A DNA stretch of 64,000 bases from NCBI RefSeq assembly GCF_004087915.1, contig NZ_CP035108.1, positions 1,240,001 through 1,304,000 on the forward strand, read 5' to 3'. The notes under the pieces were generated by a model. The model was not told where the DNA came from, did no database searches, and worked only from the letters and a program-made list of their open reading frames with translations. Below are positions 2,304 to 63,983 of this stretch, piece by piece. The DNA comes from Geovibrio thiophilus. GTDB lineage: Bacteria > Chrysiogenota > Deferribacteres > Deferribacterales > Geovibrionaceae. Position 1 is the stretch's first letter, and each line of letters opens with the position of its first letter. A program made the translations under genes and the position numbers.

Positions 2304-2928
2304 AAAGACCTCCTACCTGTTTTGAGAAAAGTATAAAACTATAAGCAGTTTCAGTTATGCGGTTTAATTCCTGTTTAAATCCGCATGCGCCTTAAAGTAA
2401 AACTACTTTATATAATGTATGTATTATTAAATTATATAGACACTATTTGTCAAGAAGATTTTATAAACCCTGATACAATAAAATGTTATAAGTATGTTGA
2501 TATGGAGTATAAAAAATTAATAAATCAGTATGTTTATTTAAAGTTATTTGATTAATTATTAATGAGACATCGGTATATAATTAATGATAAATAAATATGT
2601 TTATAAATAATTCGTTTAATAAAGAAGTTTATTTTTGGTTCAAAAAGGGTTCTGTAGGTGAAAAATGCAATACATAAATAGTTTATCTTGATATTGCGAA
2701 CGAGTGAAGGCTTTTTCAAACATAAATGAGATTTGTTCCGGCGAATGCAATTAATAGTGTATTAATTTCTGATGGGTTTAAAATTAGTCTGTTAAAAAAA
2801 GACTGATATGTATATAATCAAAAGGAAAAGCCTGCCAGCAGCTGTTTCAGCAGCTGTAGAATGGCGGTTGATTATGCCGTATGCTTGCTTTGCTCCCGCA
2901 TCTGAGCGAAAAAATTTTCGGAGGCTTT
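2304..2928. other. AT-rich intergenic region between divergent acetate-symporter and DUF294-regulator genes
   Basis: These 625 bases contain no plausible gene. Roughly 2400-2650 is very AT-rich. Three items stand out. There is an imperfect inverted repeat with arms ATGCGG (2357-2362) and CCGCAT (2381-2386) just upstream of the likely yjcH promoter, a possible operator. A fragment of the dispersed ATTGCGAAC...GTGAAG repeat lies at 2692-2710. A small hairpin AGTC/GACT with an A-rich loop lies near 2787-2803. I see no clear sigma-54 or FNR-type site and no DnaA-box cluster. Confidence 0.6.
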
Positions 2929-4818
2929 ATGGAAATCAGTTCCATGAACGGAATAACCGACATTCTGGACAGACTCACAAGATTTTATGTTTTCAAGGGT
3001 ATAGAATATTCCCGTCTGAGGCTTCTTCTGGAAAAGAGCGAGTTTGTTTCGGTGGAGCAGGGCGAGGCGCTTTTCAAAAAGGGCGAATCCTACCACAAAG
3101 GCGTATATCTTGTTTATTCGGGCGAGGTTGAGCTTTACAGCGATTCAGGGCTGAAGGCTGTTGCCGACGCTGGTGATTTCGCAGGTCTTTCCAACTTTGT
3201 GGGTAAGTCCGTTTACCACGTCAGCGCCACGGCGTCCCTGAACTCCGACCTTATTTTTATACCTGAGCTGAGTATCTATAAGCTGATGGAAGTTTCCGAA
3301 GAGTTCAGGGAACGCTTCTACGGGCTGGTTACGAGACGTATGAACGCCATCACCGGAAAAGATACGGGCAACATAGAATCCAGCACCCACAGACCTGTCG
3401 GAAGCTATATGACCAGTCCTGTGATAACAGCTCAAACCACGGATACGGTCATGGAGGCGGGCAAGGTAATGTCTGAGCACAATATAGGCGCTCTCGCTGT
3501 TCTTGACGATAAGGGGGCGCTTGCGGGTCTCATTACCAGTAAACATATGGTTCACAGGTTCCTCTCAAATATAGAGAGCAGCCTTCAGGCCCCGTATGTC
3601 AAAAACTTTATGGAAAAGGAACCTCTTGTGCTGCCTGCGGAATTTCCCCTTGCGGAAGCTCTGGGAGAGATGCAGATGAAGGCACAGGAATACGCGCTCA
3701 TATCCATGAAGAACAAGCCGGTGGGAATCATTTCCAACAATGATATAATGCGCACCCTTTTCAGGAACACATCTATTCACAACACATACATTGAAGGCGT
3801 TTCGGGAATTGATGAGCTGCGTGCCTCCTATGCGGGGCTTTATAAAATAGCCGAGGGTCTGGTGGGAAGCTCAAGGCTCACCTATGACGTTCTGCCTGTT
3901 CTTTCCGCCGTCCACCTTAACATACAGAAAAAGGTCTATCGGCTCACAGCGGAAAAATTCGCCGCGGAAACAGGGTTCGACATAACAAAGGTGAAGCACT
4001 CGCTGATCATAATGGGCAGCGGCGGACGAAAGGAGATGATGCTGGATCCCGATCAGGACAACGGCTTCATCTTTGCGGACGATGTTTCGGATGAGGACAT
4101 AGCGATGTTCCTCAAATTCGGAGCATTGTTTACTGATAATCTTGAGTTTGTGGGCTACAAAAAATGTCCGGGCAACGTTATGGTTACCAACCCGGAGATG
4201 TCCATGAGGCTTTCCGAATGGAAAAACAAGGTGCGTGACTGGGTGGACGGTTCTGCGGGGAAAAGCATTCTCTGGAGCAACATTGTTTTCGATTACGATG
4301 GTCTTGCGGGGGATGAAAAGCTTGTGTGGGAGCTCAGGGAATACATCAACATGAAAATATCCCAGAAACCGATATTTCTCATATTTATGCTGGAAAACGA
4401 CTCCAACCAGCGCAGACCTATCAACCTTTTCGGCAAGTTTATAACCGAAAAGGACGGCGAGCATGCCGGTAAGATGAATATGAAGATCGCCGCTCTGGCT
4501 TTTATAGTGGATGTTACTCGTGCCTTTACTCTCAAATACGGACTGAATGACCTTAATACGATCGAGAGGCTGAAGCATCTGCGCCGCAAGAAGATTCTGT
4601 CGGATGAACTTGTTTCTCAGACTCAGGATGCCTATGAGATTCTGGTGGATATAACTTTGAATGAGCAGATACGTCAGGCGCATTCCGGTGAGAAAATAAA
4701 CAAGTTTGTCAGCCCCGAGAGCCTGTCAATGTATAATCAGGAGAAACTCCGGAAGGCGCTTAACCATATGTCGAAGTATCTGTCGGTGGGGCTTAAGTAT
4801 TTCAAGGGACATCCTTAA
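2929..4818 (+). CDS. Cyclic-nucleotide-binding/CBS/DUF294 nucleotidyltransferase-type regulator
   Basis: This is a 629-aa cytosolic protein. In order it has a cNMP-binding-like beta barrel (about residues 10-120), two CBS domains (about 150-265; 'YMTSPVITAQTTDTVMEAG' and 'FMEKEPLVLPAEFPLAEAL'), and a DUF294 nucleotidyltransferase domain with GSGGRKEMMLDPDQDNG near residue 365. That motif matches the GS...D.D catalytic pattern of GlnD-type transferases. A helical DUF294 C-terminal domain follows. An upstream ATG at 2881 is in frame, but the ATG at 2929 has a CGGAGG site five bases before it and is preferred. Such proteins are often encoded beside ActP and a DnaQ-like exonuclease and are thought to regulate acetate or central metabolism. 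Target and ligand are unknown. Confidence 0.85.
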   Translation: MEISSMNGITDILDRLTRFYVFKGIEYSRLRLLLEKSEFVSVEQGEALFKKGESYHKGVYLVYSGEVELYSDSGLKAVADAGDFAGLSNFVGKSVYHVSATASLNSDLIFIPELSIYKLMEVSEEFRERFYGLVTRRMNAITGKDTGNIESSTHRPVGSYMTSPVITAQTTDTVMEAGKVMSEHNIGALAVLDDKGALAGLITSKHMVHRFLSNIESSLQAPYVKNFMEKEPLVLPAEFPLAEALGEMQMKAQEYALISMKNKPVGIISNNDIMRTLFRNTSIHNTYIEGVSGIDELRASYAGLYKIAEGLVGSSRLTYDVLPVLSAVHLNIQKKVYRLTAEKFAAETGFDITKVKHSLIIMGSGGRKEMMLDPDQDNGFIFADDVSDEDIAMFLKFGALFTDNLEFVGYKKCPGNVMVTNPEMSMRLSEWKNKVRDWVDGSAGKSILWSNIVFDYDGLAGDEKLVWELREYINMKISQKPIFLIFMLENDSNQRRPINLFGKFITEKDGEHAGKMNMKIAALAFIVDVTRAFTLKYGLNDLNTIERLKHLRRKKILSDELVSQTQDAYEILVDITLNEQIRQAHSGEKINKFVSPESLSMYNQEKLRKALNHMSKYLSVGLKYFKGHP

Positions 4819-4909: not shown

Positions 4910-4935
4910 CTGTGACTGGTAAAAATGACTCTGAC

Positions 4936-5214
4936 AACTCCATGGATGGAGTTGCGCCGTGCGTAGCGAAGACGAACGAAGTTCGGCGCGAGCGTGTACC
5001 CAAAATTTCCAAGGATGGCAAATTTTGGATTATAAAGACCAGATGTTGCGCCGTGCGTAGCGAAGACGAACGAAGTTCGGCGCGAGCGTGTATCCAAAAT
5101 TTCCAAGGATGGCAAATTTTGGATTATAAAGACCAGATGTTGCGCCGTGCGTAGCGAAGACGAACGAAGTTCGGCGCGAGCGTGTACAGTAGTCCGGCAG
5201 GATGCACGGATTAC
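4936..5214 (+). repeat. Stem-loop array A: three scaffold copies with alternating hairpins (94-bp unit)
   Basis: The scaffold TGCGCCGTGCGTAGCGAAG ... GCGAGCGTGTA occurs at 4953, 5047 and 5141 with an exact 94-bp period. Each encloses a hairpin CGAAC-GAA-GTTCG. Between scaffolds lie longer hairpins with arms CCAAAATTT/AAATTTTGG, CC/GG closing pairs and hexaloop AAGGAT (5011-5016 and 5105-5110). The array opens with AACTCC-ATGGAT-GGAGTT (4936-4953) and closes with an 8-bp hairpin GTAGTCCG/CGGATTAC enclosing CAGGAT (5189-5214). The 94-bp period is not a multiple of three, so it is not a coding repeat. The same scaffold occurs in arrays B and C. Confidence 0.85.
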
Positions 5215-5269
5215 AGTTATTAAGTAAGACGGATTGACTGGCATAAGTTTCTGATATAATCTCAACTCT

Positions 5270-9521: not shown

Positions 9522-9600
9522 TATAATATATTATGACGGCTTTGTGAGAAAGCCGCTGGATTGAGGGCTCCTACGGATTAATCCGCAGGAGCCTTCTGCG
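9522..9600 (+). ncRNA. Putative small RNA: -10 box followed by two stable hairpins
   Basis: TATAAT at 9522-9527 would start a transcript near 9534. The transcript would contain hairpin CGGCTTT-GTGAG-AAAGCCG, then GGCTCCTaCGGATT/AATCCGcAGGAGCC (one A/C mismatch) and a T-rich stretch (TTCTGCGTTATT). That layout fits a 60-70 nt RNA ending at an intrinsic terminator. No good -35 is visible. The second palindrome could equally be the terminator of the upstream 61-aa gene, or of array B read on the other strand. Confidence 0.3.
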
Positions 9601-9617
9601 TTATTGTCGGATTTTGC

Positions 9618-9866
9618 CACACGCTCGCGGCAGGGTAAACTTTCCTTCGCTTCGCACGGCGCATGTCTTGTCTTAATAATCCCCAATTTTCCATCCATGG
9701 AAATTCGGGATACACGCTCGCGGCAGGATAAACCTGCCTTCGCTTCGCACGGCGCATATCTTGTCTTAATAATCCCCAATTTTCCATCCATGGAAATTCG
9801 GGATACACGCTCGCGGCAGGATAAACCTGCCTTCGCTTCGCACGGCGCAGTTCCATCCATGGAACT
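9618..9866 (-). repeat. Stem-loop array B: three scaffold copies with alternating hairpins (93-bp unit)
   Basis: Read on the minus strand, this is the same scaffold as arrays A and C: TGCGCCGTGCGAAGCGAAG ... GCGAGCGTGT, three copies with a 93-bp period. The enclosed hairpin is GGCAGG-TTTAT-CCTGCC. In the last (9618-side) copy the left arm has decayed. Between scaffolds are hairpins with an 11-pair stem (one A/A mismatch, one G/T) and hexaloop ATGGAT (9693-9698 and 9786-9791). The array opens with AGTTCC-ATGGAT-GGAACT (9849-9866). The arms differ in sequence from array A, but pairing and loops are kept. Confidence 0.85.
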
Positions 9867-9929
9867 GTTTATGCTCCGATTCTTAGGATGATCATAATGA
9901 TATTTTCGCCCGTGCCTAAGCTCAAAATA

Positions 9930-59823: not shown

Positions 59824-60333
59824 GTTAAAATATATTTGAAATAGGATCCTTTGTCTATATTATATAAAGTATGAAGATATTCATTCATCTGCCGATAATT
59901 ACTTCTTCCTGCTTTCCCAGATTCGTTTGAGATGATAAAGGTTCATGTTCATGTCGTATTTGTTCGGCATCGGCAGTATCCGACAGGATGTGCGGATTTA
60001 AGTTATTAACATTCCCAAGGACGGGAATGCGCCGTGCGAAGCGAAGCCGAACTTGTTTCGGCGCGAGCGTGTACTTAAATCCGACAGGATGTGCGGATTT
60101 AAGTTATTAACATTCCCAAGGACGGGAATGCGCCGTGCGAAGCGAAGCCGAACTTGTTTCGGCGCGAGCGTGTACTTAAATCCGACAGGATGTGCGGATT
60201 TAAGTTATTAACATTCCCAAGGACGGGAATGCGCCGTGCGAAGCGAAGCCGAACTTGTTTCGGCGCGAGCGTGTACTTAAATCCGACAGGATGTGCGGAT
60301 TTAAGTTATTAAATTAAGAGGTATATTCTATAT
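59824..60333. other. Intergenic region between the OppD-type gene and dnaG: stem-loop array C
   Basis: This 510-base gap holds a likely minus-strand promoter near 59860, about 100 bases of ordinary sequence, and array C (59978-60305). Only 28 bases separate the last hairpin from the dnaG ATG, and the best ribosome site there (AAGAGG, near 60314) is farther from the ATG than usual. Confidence 0.7.
59978..60305 (+). repeat. Stem-loop array C: three scaffold copies with alternating hairpins (101-bp unit), directly upstream of dnaG
   Basis: The scaffold TGCGCCGTGCGAAGCGAAG ... GCGAGCGTGTA occurs at 60028, 60129 and 60230 with an exact 101-bp period, enclosing the hairpin CCGAA-CTTGT-TTCGG. Each scaffold is preceded by CATTCCC-AAGGAC-GGGAATG (loops at 60017, 60118 and 60219). 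Each is followed by a 10-bp perfect stem CTTAAATCCG/CGGATTTAAG enclosing ACAGGATGTG (60074, 60175 and 60276); a shorter copy of this hairpin opens the array at 59978. Seven hairpins thus expose GGA. The copies are identical. Confidence 0.9.
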
Positions 60334-62037
60334 ATGAAAATTCCCGATACGGTTGTCGAAGAGGTTCTGAGTTCAGCGGACATTGTCGACATTGTCGGAG
60401 AGGCTGTTCAGCTTAAAAAAACCGGAAACAGCTATAAAGGTCTCTGCCCGTTCCACGGGGAGAAGACTCCGTCGTTCAACGTTAATCCGGAGAAAAACCT
60501 GTTTTACTGCTTCGGCTGCGGGGCAGGGGGGAACGCCATAACATTTGTTTCCCGTTTTCATAACCTGAGCTTCACGGATGCGGTTATGTTCCTTGCAGAG
60601 CGCTATGGTATAAGTGTGGCTACAGGCAAAGACGATTCCAAGCGCAGCGGCATAATCGGTCTGCATGAGGATATTCTGCTGGAAACAAAGCGCAGGCTGC
60701 TCTCCGCCGAAGGAAAAGAGGCGAGGGAATACATCACCTCCCGCAAATTTCCCGATGCAATAGTGGAGGAGTTCGGTCTGGGCTACTTTCCGCTCCGTCT
60801 GGACACTGAACCTTACCTCAAGAGGTACGGCAAGGATGTTCTCTTGGCGTCGGGTCTTTTTGTTGAGGGGCAGTACGGCGTGCGGATGCGTTTTTTCAAC
60901 AGATTATCCTTCCCTATAAGGAGTATAACAGGAAAGGTCGTGGGCTTCTCCGGGCGTTCCATGGACGGCTCCATGCCGAAATATATGAACTCTCCTGAGA
61001 CTGAGGCGTTCAGAAAGAGAGAAATTCTCTACAACTTTGACAAGGCGAAGGACAAGATAAAAAAAACCGAAACCTGCATAATCACAGAAGGCTACTTTGA
61101 TGTGATGCGAATGGTGGAAAAGGGCTACGGAAACTCAGTGGCGACTATGGGAACTGCGCTCACCAAGGAGCATGTGGATCAGCTTAAACGCTATGCTCAG
61201 GAGATTGTGCTCCTGTTTGACGGTGATGAGGCAGGCTTCAAGGCGGCTCTTAAAACGCTGGACATTTTTCTTGAGTCCAATTTTTTCCCCTACGCCGTCT
61301 TTCTCCCCAAGGGGGAAGACCCCGACACGTTTCTTTTGCAGAAGGGCGCGAAGGAATTTGAAAAGCTTCTGGACGCAAAGAAGGATCTGTTTTTGTACAC
61401 CGTGGATCTGCTTAGAGCGAAGTCCAGCGACTTTAACAGAAAGCTCATACATTTAGGCAGAATTAAAGAGAAACTGATGCGGATAAAGGATCCGTACCGG
61501 AAATCACATTACCTTGAAGCTGTCGCGAAGCGCTTTGAAGTTGACCCTGACATTATGAAAAAAGATGTTGATCTTTCTCTTGCCAAAACTAACTTAAAGA
61601 AGACCAATTCAGCAGGACTGAATTATATATGCGAGAGGCATTACCTCTCAAGCCTGTTCCAGCTTCCCGAAGACTTGGGGCAGAGACTTGCCGAAGGTGT
61701 CGCCGAGTCCTATTTTCACGATCCGGTGGCGCGAAAAATTTTTAAGAAACTAGTTGAAGTTTTTAATGAAGGTGGTAGTATCGAGATTCTTGTCAATGAT
61801 CCCGAAGTGGGTGAGGATATTGCTGAAATGCGTATCCAGCAAGAGTCTCAGGAAGATTATTACCGTTCCGCAATGGAAAACAGGGGTAAGATCATCAGCA
61901 ACGCAATGCCTGCTTTCAAAAAAAACATGACTAAAAAAATATCCGAAGCGACCTCGTTTGAAGAGAAGATGGAACTGCTCCGTCTTCAGAACAGTGTCGT
62001 TCGGAACGAAGTTATTGATAAGAAATCGGAGGTTTAG
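60334..62037 (+). CDS. dnaG: DNA primase
   Basis: This 567-aa enzyme has a CHC2 zinc finger near the N-terminus (CPFHGEKTPSFNV, then LFYCFGCGAGGN), an N-terminal catalytic subdomain (YFPLRLDTEPYLKRYGKDVL), and a TOPRIM domain with ITEGYFDVMRMVEKGY and LLFDGDEAGFKAALK. A C-terminal helicase-binding region follows (about 430-567). It makes RNA primers for replication. rpoD follows after five bases, the macromolecular-synthesis arrangement, but rpsU is absent upstream. The AAGAGG ribosome site is poorly placed, so the start codon is slightly uncertain. Array C lies directly upstream. Confidence 0.95.
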   Translation: MKIPDTVVEEVLSSADIVDIVGEAVQLKKTGNSYKGLCPFHGEKTPSFNVNPEKNLFYCFGCGAGGNAITFVSRFHNLSFTDAVMFLAERYGISVATGKDDSKRSGIIGLHEDILLETKRRLLSAEGKEAREYITSRKFPDAIVEEFGLGYFPLRLDTEPYLKRYGKDVLLASGLFVEGQYGVRMRFFNRLSFPIRSITGKVVGFSGRSMDGSMPKYMNSPETEAFRKREILYNFDKAKDKIKKTETCIITEGYFDVMRMVEKGYGNSVATMGTALTKEHVDQLKRYAQEIVLLFDGDEAGFKAALKTLDIFLESNFFPYAVFLPKGEDPDTFLLQKGAKEFEKLLDAKKDLFLYTVDLLRAKSSDFNRKLIHLGRIKEKLMRIKDPYRKSHYLEAVAKRFEVDPDIMKKDVDLSLAKTNLKKTNSAGLNYICERHYLSSLFQLPEDLGQRLAEGVAESYFHDPVARKIFKKLVEVFNEGGSIEILVNDPEVGEDIAEMRIQQESQEDYYRSAMENRGKIISNAMPAFKKNMTKKISEATSFEEKMELLRLQNSVVRNEVIDKKSEV

Positions 62038-62042
62038 GGTAG

Positions 62043-63983
62043 ATGTCGAAAAAGATTAAGACCCCGGAAGTTAAACAGATTATCGCACTGGGGAAAGAGA
62101 AGGGATTTCTCACTTTTGACGAGATAAACGACATCCTTCCGGAAGAGATGAGTTCGGCAGAGTTCATTGACGAAATACTCATGCTTCTGGCTCAGCTTAA
62201 GATCGATGTTATAGATTCCAAATCCAAGAACAGCAGCCTTCTTTCCGCAGATGATGAAGATGATGAAGCCGATGAGGATGATGAGGTTCTGTCTGCGCTG
62301 AAATCCGGCGTTGAGGACACTATGAGCACGGATGATCCCGTGCGCCTTTACCTTAAGGAGATGGGCAACATTCCGCTTCTTAACAGGGAAGAGGAGATTC
62401 AGGTCGCAAGGGAAATAGAAGACGGACAAAGCAAGGTAATCAGAAGCGTTCTGCTTTTCCCCACCACCGCCAAGAAGATCATGGAGATAGCCGAGGCGAT
62501 AAATGACGGCTCCATGAGGCTGAAAGACATAGTGGATGTGGACGACGAACTTGACTTTGAATCCGGTGAAATAGACTTTGATGATGCCGAGCACGAAGCT
62601 GAAGCAGAGCACGAAGAGGCTGAGGAAGACAGCTTCAGTGACGCTGAAGAGGGCGCCGAGGAAAAAACCGAGGAAGCCGCCCCCCAGAAGACTGTTGCCG
62701 AAGCCGTTGAAGAGATAGAGAGAGCCAAAAGCGCGGCAGCGGAAGCTGCCGAAGACAGGGAAGCGCAGATGCGCGCTCAGTTTGTCTGCATTTTTGAGGA
62801 TATAACCCAGAAGCTCAAAGAGAACATTGACCTTGCCGCCAGAATCAAGGACGGTTCGATCAATGTGGAAGACATGATCGATGTCAACAGACACAGGCAG
62901 TCTACCGTGGATGAAATCACGGAAAAGCTCCTTGAGATCAAGGTCAACTACTCCAAAATATGCCAGATTGCAAACGATATAAGAGAGATGTACTCCAGAG
63001 TCATCGACTCTCAGAGCGATATACGCAAGCTGCTCAAGCTTATGAAGATCACCGCCTCCAAGGACCCTCTTGAGATTACCGATGAGGAGATCACAAAAGC
63101 ATGTGAGGAAACCGGCAAATCCGCCGGAGAGAAAGAGCTTGTCGTCAAAAAATTCTCCAAGGCGCGTGACACTCTTCTTAAGGAATACAAGAAACTCGGC
63201 TGCGACAAACAGGAGCTTGAACTCATATACGAAGGGCTTCTTCTCGGCGAGAGAGAGACAGAGAACGCGAAAAGCAAGCTTATAGAGGCTAACCTGCGTC
63301 TTGTTGTTTCTATCGCCAAAAAATACACAAACAGAGGCTTGCAGTTCCTTGACCTTATTCAGGAAGGGAACATAGGGCTTATGAAGGCTGTTGAGAAGTT
63401 CGAGTATAAACGAGGCTACAAGTTCTCCACATACGCCACGTGGTGGATTCGTCAGGCTATCACAAGGGCAATAGCGGATCAGGCGCGCACCATCCGTATC
63501 CCCGTGCATATGATAGAGACCATAAACAAGATGATGAAGATCACCCGCCAGCTCCAGCAGGATTACGGCAGGGAGCCCACCCCCGAGGAAATATCCAAGA
63601 AGATGGATATACCCGTGGAAAAGATCAAAAAGGTTATGAAGATAGCCAAGGAACCCGTCTCTCTGGAAACGCCCATAGGCGAGGATGAGGACAGCAGCCT
63701 TGGTGACTTTATCGAAGACAAGAGCGCCACAAACCCCGCAGACGAGGTCATGTACCTGAAGCTGCGTGAACATACCAAGCAGATACTCAATACACTGTCA
63801 CAGCGCGAGGCAAACGTTCTCAAGCTGCGTTTCGGCATCGACTGCGAGTCCGACCACACCCTTGAGGAAGTGGGCAAGCAGTTCAGTGTAACCCGTGAGC
63901 GTATCAGGCAGATTGAGGCTAAAGCTTTAAGAAAACTGCGTCATCCTACCAGAAGCAGAATTCTTAAAACTTTTGTAGAATAG
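62043..63983 (+). CDS. rpoD: RNA polymerase primary sigma factor
   Basis: This 646-aa sigma-70 has region 1.1 (residues about 1-70), then an acidic insertion (about 70-210, rich in Asp and Glu, with [13 protein letters not shown] and [12 protein letters not shown]). Region 1.2/2 starts [20 protein letters not shown]. Region 2.3-2.4 reads [20 protein letters not shown], region 3 [20 protein letters not shown], and region 4.2 [17 protein letters not shown] with tail SRILKTFVE. It is the housekeeping factor. It is co-transcribed with dnaG. The coding sequence ends inside the window. Confidence 0.97.

Follow-up and report, generated by a model that had tools for sequence, protein, structure and literature searches.

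Tandem repeat arrays in the window

The window, i.e., the whole 64,000-nucleotide stretch analyzed, contained three tandem arrays (A, B, and C) with repeat units of 94, 93, and 101 nt, respectively. Together, the three arrays held 9 of about 310 genome copies of one element. In a full unit of this element, left and right hairpins flanked a conserved core that included a middle hairpin. Folding of each array was better than that of dinucleotide shuffles (z -4.8 for A, -3.5 for B, and -7.4 for C). A coding reading of arrays A and B was rejected because the open reading frames across them had negative coding scores, i.e., scored as non-coding.

Array A was located on the + strand downstream of a same-strand gene (2881–4818) encoding a cNMP-binding/CBS/DUF294 nucleotidyltransferase protein. 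Unit 1 (4935–5030) scored 87.0 bits against R1, a covariance model of the units, and contained a left hairpin at 4935–4954 with the loop ATGGAT (closing pair 4941/4948), a core at 4955–4971 followed by the middle hairpin, and a right hairpin with the loop AAGGAT (closing pair 5010/5017). Unit 2 (5040–5124; R1 62.0 bits) had a linker in place of the left hairpin, a core at 5049–5065, and a right loop AAGGAT (5104/5111). Unit 3 (5134–5217; R1 68.6 bits) had a core at 5143–5159 and a right pentaloop AGGAT (5198/5204; CAGGATG). Altogether, array A contained four GGA loops: ATGGAT once, AAGGAT twice, and CAGGATG once. The range 5000–5122, given for the loops in a preliminary description of the sequence, takes in only part of this array.

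Array B was located on the - strand. Unit 1 (9772–9867; R1 95.9 bits) contained a left ATGGAT loop (9854/9861), a core at 9831–9847, and a right ATGGAT loop (9785/9792), while unit 2 (9679–9763; R1 66.9 bits) contained a core at 9738–9754 and a right ATGGAT loop (9692/9699). Unit 3 (9575–9670; R1 40.6 bits) was decayed, with a core at 9645–9661 and a right end that lacked the GGA hairpin. The three ATGGAT loops reported previously for array B were thus present, but its third unit had a right hairpin without GGA.

Array C was located on the + strand between a - strand gene and dnaG (primase; 60334–62037, +), which was followed by a sigma-70 gene (62043–63983). At its 5′ end was an incomplete right hairpin (59977–59998) with the loop AGGAT (59984/59990). 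Three complete units followed, each scoring 109.6 bits against R1: unit 1 (60010–60104; left AAGGAC 60016/60023, core 60030–60046, right AGGAT 60085/60091), unit 2 (60111–60205; left AAGGAC 60117/60124, core 60131–60147, right AGGAT 60186/60192), and unit 3 (60212–60306; left AAGGAC 60218/60225, core 60232–60248, right AGGAT 60287/60293). The dnaG start codon was 27 nt past the end of unit 3. Array C therefore displayed AAGGAC three times and ACAGGATGT four times. The counts of 4, 3, and 7 GGA loops originally given for arrays A, B, and C were all recovered, each loop in its place.

A promoter-like TTGAAA-N16-TATTAT was found 5′ of array C (59836–59863, +) by a pattern scan expecting 1.2 chance sites per region. 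Two sister species shared the sequence around it, and two other genera shared part of it (L407–L410). This site is probably the dnaG-rpoD promoter and, given the site and the conserved sequence 5′ of dnaG, array C probably lies within the dnaG-rpoD 5′ leader. Pattern scans found no promoter-like site at array A, and neither array A nor array C gave terminator-like sites or T tracts. One intrinsic terminator (9584–9600, + strand) was located beside array B and not inside it. As none was found at arrays A and C and this single one was outside array B, an intrinsic-terminator reading of the repeats was rejected.

Anatomy of the repeat unit

In total, 202 cores were extracted from 81 regions of the genome. 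The left hairpin was directly 5′ of the core and had 7 bp in a fixed register and an ANGGAN hexaloop. Three species yielded 101 unique left hairpins, collected without any filter on loop sequence, in which the loop columns were A (97), N, G (96), G (96), A (99), and N. The second and last bases of the loop were free, and stem positions 3–7 included every kind of Watson-Crick pair. Shine-Dalgarno mimicry was rejected because base N varied and a G after GGA was rare (column 6 was G in 5/101).

The right hairpin had an AGGAN or ANGGAN loop, a 2-bp apical helix, a 1-nt 3′ bulge, and an outer helix of at least 8 bp. CA(N)GGANG was found in 184/210 right hairpins, and 139/210 had exactly the design of 2 bp plus 3′ bulge. 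RNAfold placed GGA within a loop in 133 of 157 unique right-hairpin segments. As a control, 73 unique hairpins with 7 bp and a hexaloop were taken from outside the elements; none had an A.GGA loop, compared with 40 near cores.

Covariation was counted on a set of 30 gap-free pentaloop units because MAFFT placed the right hairpins with pentaloops one column out of register with those that had hexaloops. The covariation score was 0.750, compared with 0.193 (sd 0.015) for shuffled data, while slid partners gave no more than 0.136. Both sides had changed in 24 of the 26 pairs of this set, although such counts are not of independent events, because duplication, and probably gene conversion, links the units within one genome. 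The middle helix, which was not used in selecting units, paired in 98.9% of cells. Thus, the stems covaried massively while the outer GGA loops stayed fixed.

Some element loops had lost GGA. At one locus (L102; 249400–252700 of the genome) three right hairpins had ACACGACGTT or ACACGACATT where GGA normally stands, and in a relative from another genome (G006, L211) the loop was ACGAC. A small CGA-loop subgroup may exist.

The core, CGCCGTGCGnAGCGAAG...CGCGAGCGTG (e.g., window positions 4955–4971 and 4988–4997), was more conserved than any other part of the element. Its outer arms had little pairing and no covariation. Binding of CsrA to the loops would leave this conservation unexplained, which suggests that the core has a reader of its own or a structural or fixed tertiary role.

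Copy number, placement, and relatives

The core motif CGCCGTGCGnAGCGAAG had 314 copies in the Deferribacterales genome (2,997,552 bases), compared with two for a reversed-pattern control. The sampled part of the genome reached near 1.37 Mb on the + strand and near 2.47 Mb on the - strand and contained 91 arrays, 35 of which were single units. Genes were called by our own hexamer model, so that single gene contexts can be wrong; across three species, none of 136 sampled arrays was inside a gene. In tandem gaps 72 of 90 arrays were sense with the genes (p 8e-9) and about 20% were antisense to both neighbors. Convergent gaps held 35 arrays and divergent gaps eight, whereas among gaps of at least 60 nt in the window five were convergent and 11 divergent. 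Many left hairpins started 0–11 nt past a stop codon. In other cases the right hairpin stopped just 5′ of the next Shine-Dalgarno sequence. Several arrays in short gaps between co-oriented genes had less than 30 nt on their upstream side. Because arrays follow stop codons and are sense to the upstream gene, most elements are probably parts of mRNA 3′ ends and intercistronic gaps and not CsrB-like small RNAs (sRNAs).

Covarying palindromes alone cannot tell RNA from DNA. On the GGA-showing strand, G-U pairs outnumbered A-C pairs in the stems (42 vs. 19, p 0.004); part of the 42 is biased, as the right hairpins had first passed a pairing filter in which G-U counted as pairing, and in the left and middle helices only the numbers were 21 and 9. 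This excess, the absence of arrays from genes, the sense orientation of 72 of 90 arrays, and the preference for convergent over divergent gaps favor an element that acts as RNA on the GGA-showing strand rather than as DNA.

Two side observations were made on array composition. At one locus (L123; 1140440, - strand, and 1140539, + strand) two units were head to head on opposite strands within 100 nt, an exception to the same-strand arrangement. A second interspersed repeat, GAGATTGCTTCACCCTTTCAGGGTTCGCAATGACG, was often found inside the amplified unit of GGA arrays (L147, L154, L155, L156) and looks like an independent REP-like family.

Two genomes of the same genus contained about 112 and 141 core copies. 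Three copies were found in one other genus of the family, and nearly all other genomes had zero. The core was also scanned for, as an exact pattern, across 84,980 species; among the matches listed, more than one copy was found only in the MAG Deferribacterales bacterium Deferri_01, the others being single chance matches. Turnover was evident at single loci. At dnaG, the unit was lost in one sister species (G001), while another genome (G002) had one unit with the same right hairpin, different left and middle stems, and a GGA loop. At other orthologous gaps the element was kept with changed copy number, exchanged stems, and GGA loops. Given the loss at dnaG and these shifts in copy number, no single copy looks essential, and yet the copies kept their GGA loops despite turnover.

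R1 detected weaker relatives in three further genomes (G003, G007, and G016) and in a genus of another family (g13). These relatives had different stems and a diverged core, again with left and right GGA hairpins, and a Shine-Dalgarno sequence and start codon were usually just 3′ of them. A second model, R2, built from the diverged relatives, found from 10 to at least 70 copies per g13 genome. Both models include the GGA loops, so that these searches favor GGA matches; stems and core differed nonetheless. In a genome of the second family (G023) the loop types were swapped, with AGGAN on the left in 35 and ANGGAN on the right in 38 of 41 unique units, the latter with all four bases at N. The sense bias in tandem gaps was absent from this genome (6 vs. 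5). R1 and R2 searches gave no matches in genomes outside the order, and in families f2, f4, and f7, where csrA was present, they detected no elements.

Probable CsrA binding and alternative readings

The preliminary description proposed that the GGA loops are CsrA/RsmA sites on decoy RNAs, and named the presence of csrA in the genome as a check. One csrA gene was found (G000:C1:452962–453120, E 5e-25), adjoined by fliW and by a gene with a flagellin C-terminal domain. The encoded CsrA aligned full length with the RsmE of RNA complex 2jpp, and the HR(K/E)EI region was kept. R2 matches occurred in 22 genomes of the order, each of which had csrA, and in none of the nine genomes lacking csrA; the hypergeometric probability of this co-occurrence (0.001) overstates the evidence, because csrA and the elements are both clustered on the tree.

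In published structures, a high-affinity CsrA/RsmE site is a stem-borne ANGGAX hexaloop whose variable N and X bases are looped out; AGGAX pentaloops are weaker sites, and both loop types have been solved in RsmZ-RsmE complexes (PMC4005645). The elements place GGA in just such stem-closed ANGGAX or AGGAX loops, in a genome that has csrA. Because the conserved and the free loop bases match the published RsmE/CsrA rule, the dispersed intergenic family is probably one of mRNA-borne CsrA-binding RNA elements. The CsrA-site part of the original proposal thus gained strong support from the sequence, the loop rule being kept across hundreds of copies with changed stems. Its other part, a decoy RNA of the RsmY/CsrB type, did not stand as formulated, as the genome holds about 310 dispersed copies and not a few dedicated sRNA genes. 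These copies occur mostly after stop codons, between operon genes, or, for array C, probably in the dnaG leader, and would therefore be carried by mRNAs. Titration of CsrA would still be possible as a collective effect of the copies.

CsrA decoy RNAs are known mainly as a few sRNAs of Gammaproteobacteria. CsrB/CsrC and RsmX/RsmY/RsmZ likewise contain repeated hairpins with ANGGAX and AGGAX loops. They are encoded by one to three dedicated sRNA genes, however, and lack the conserved core, the middle hairpin, and the bulged right hairpin; the present elements occur in another phylum with a FliW-type Csr system. At gathering scores no Rfam family matched in the window, and at E<=5 the eight array loci searched gave only chance-level matches; CsrB, CsrC, RsmY, PrrB-RsmZ, and TwoAYGGAY were matched in neither search. 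Gardner and Eldai (2014) noted that no CsrA decoy RNAs had been identified outside Gammaproteobacteria (PMC4333381). The nearest predicted CsrA-binding RNAs outside that class are TwoAYGGAY (RF01731) and Bacillaceae-1 (RF01690), uncharacterized RNAs that likewise have two GGA loops (PMC4333381) but differ in architecture and are not described as high-copy repeats. Also known are mRNA-borne sites that titrate CsrA, as proposed here: the flaA leader of Campylobacter jejuni, a sponge acting beside FliW (PMC4894983), and the fimAICDHF leader of Salmonella. Those are single, highly expressed leaders, whereas the present sites belong to a repeat family and would be distributed over many mRNAs, chiefly at the 3′ end. 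Searches of the open-access literature found no earlier description of dispersed repeats that carry CsrA sites.

The best surviving alternative, though an unlikely one, is a selfish DNA repeat of the REP/BIME or MITE kind, whose mobilizing enzyme would read hairpin DNA or single-stranded DNA with the GGA loop as its signal, insertion after stop codons being harmless. Hundreds of extragenic copies, mostly downstream of genes, tandem amplification with array-specific units, and copy-number change and loss at orthologous loci would all suit such a repeat. GTAG and CGTC REPs are likewise dispersed palindromes, often 3′ of coding regions, that form hairpin arrays and have alternative complementary stems (PMC3733652). 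Unlike these, the present copies have neither GTAG nor CGTC as a common tag (A, T, G, and C all preceded AG in the core), and they combine two distinct hairpins of fixed orientation with fixed single-stranded GGA loops. No Y1 transposase (PF01797; RAYT/IS200) was found in the complete genome, while the control search matched in 5 of 14 genomes. RAYT/IS200 mobility was rejected on this ground; the whole REP class is not excluded by it, because CGTC REPs likewise have no dedicated transposase (PMC3733652). The loops are free at N and X and fixed at A, G, G, and A, as in the CsrA rule. The designs of the left and right hairpins differ, loop types swap between families while GGA stays, and G-U exceeds A-C on the sense strand, all of which speak against a DNA signal. 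To our knowledge, an A-N-G-G-A-X loop pattern is not a rule of RAYTs.

Less probable again is a structural element of mRNA 3′ ends or intercistronic gaps, acting in stabilization, processing, or termination and read by an ANGGA-loop protein other than CsrA. Its stable covarying stems, its position right past stop codons or before the next Shine-Dalgarno sequence, and the need for a separate reader of the conserved core are compatible with such a role, but csrA co-occurs with the elements, arrays A and C lack terminator-like T tracts, and we know of no other protein specific for ANGGA hexaloops or AGGA pentaloops. Discrete sRNAs of the CsrB/RsmY type, one per array and each with its own promoter, would account for several GGA loops per array and the same loop rule, but are very improbable given about 310 cores, 35 single units among 91 sampled arrays, short gaps between co-oriented genes with less than 30 nt upstream in several cases, and the lack of a promoter-like site at array A and of terminator-like sites at A or C, so that no dedicated gene with its own promoter and terminator was recognized.

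Under the CsrA-binding reading, the elements would be transcribed within mRNAs, at 3′ ends, in intercistronic gaps, and in some 5′ leaders. Each GGA loop would dock one face of a CsrA dimer, so that a unit or array could hold one or more dimers. Together, the roughly 310 cores would form a distributed mRNA-borne reservoir and, alongside the protein antagonist FliW, buffer the free CsrA. A bound CsrA could have local effects as well, either at the 3′ end of the mRNA or, where an element abuts the Shine-Dalgarno sequence of the following gene, at that gene's start site. We infer that the element acts as a distributed sponge, in local mRNA control, or in both. A collective effect on free CsrA is favored by the copy number, the spread over transcripts, and the turnover at single loci; the placement past stop codons and before start sites is compatible with local control of mRNA decay or of translation. 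The assignment as CsrA sites is much firmer than the choice between these two.

More tentatively, with somewhat less than even confidence, the elements may be an order-wide repeat, amplified in this genus, that puts high-affinity CsrA hairpins into hundreds of mRNAs. It would thereby form a sponge without an sRNA gene, in which global transcription sets the level of free CsrA and rapid changes in copy number tune the system. An unrelated phylum with a CsrA-FliW system has hundreds of hairpins that follow the CsrA rule and have persisted in two families despite wholesale changes in their stems. Should binding by CsrA be confirmed, this global regulator would have docking sites built into each of hundreds of mRNAs and a transcriptome-wide reservoir, and REP-type repeats would acquire a clear RNA-level function. 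The csrA regulons of these bacteria, which include gut species, could then not be understood without the elements.

One further observation concerns genus g13. Elements of several of its species preceded the Shine-Dalgarno sequences of apparently the same two genes (L202, L203, L207, L209, L210, L220), whose proteins start with MLNVGLIGLGK and MSKEILINSGIR. This arrangement could represent conserved local control.
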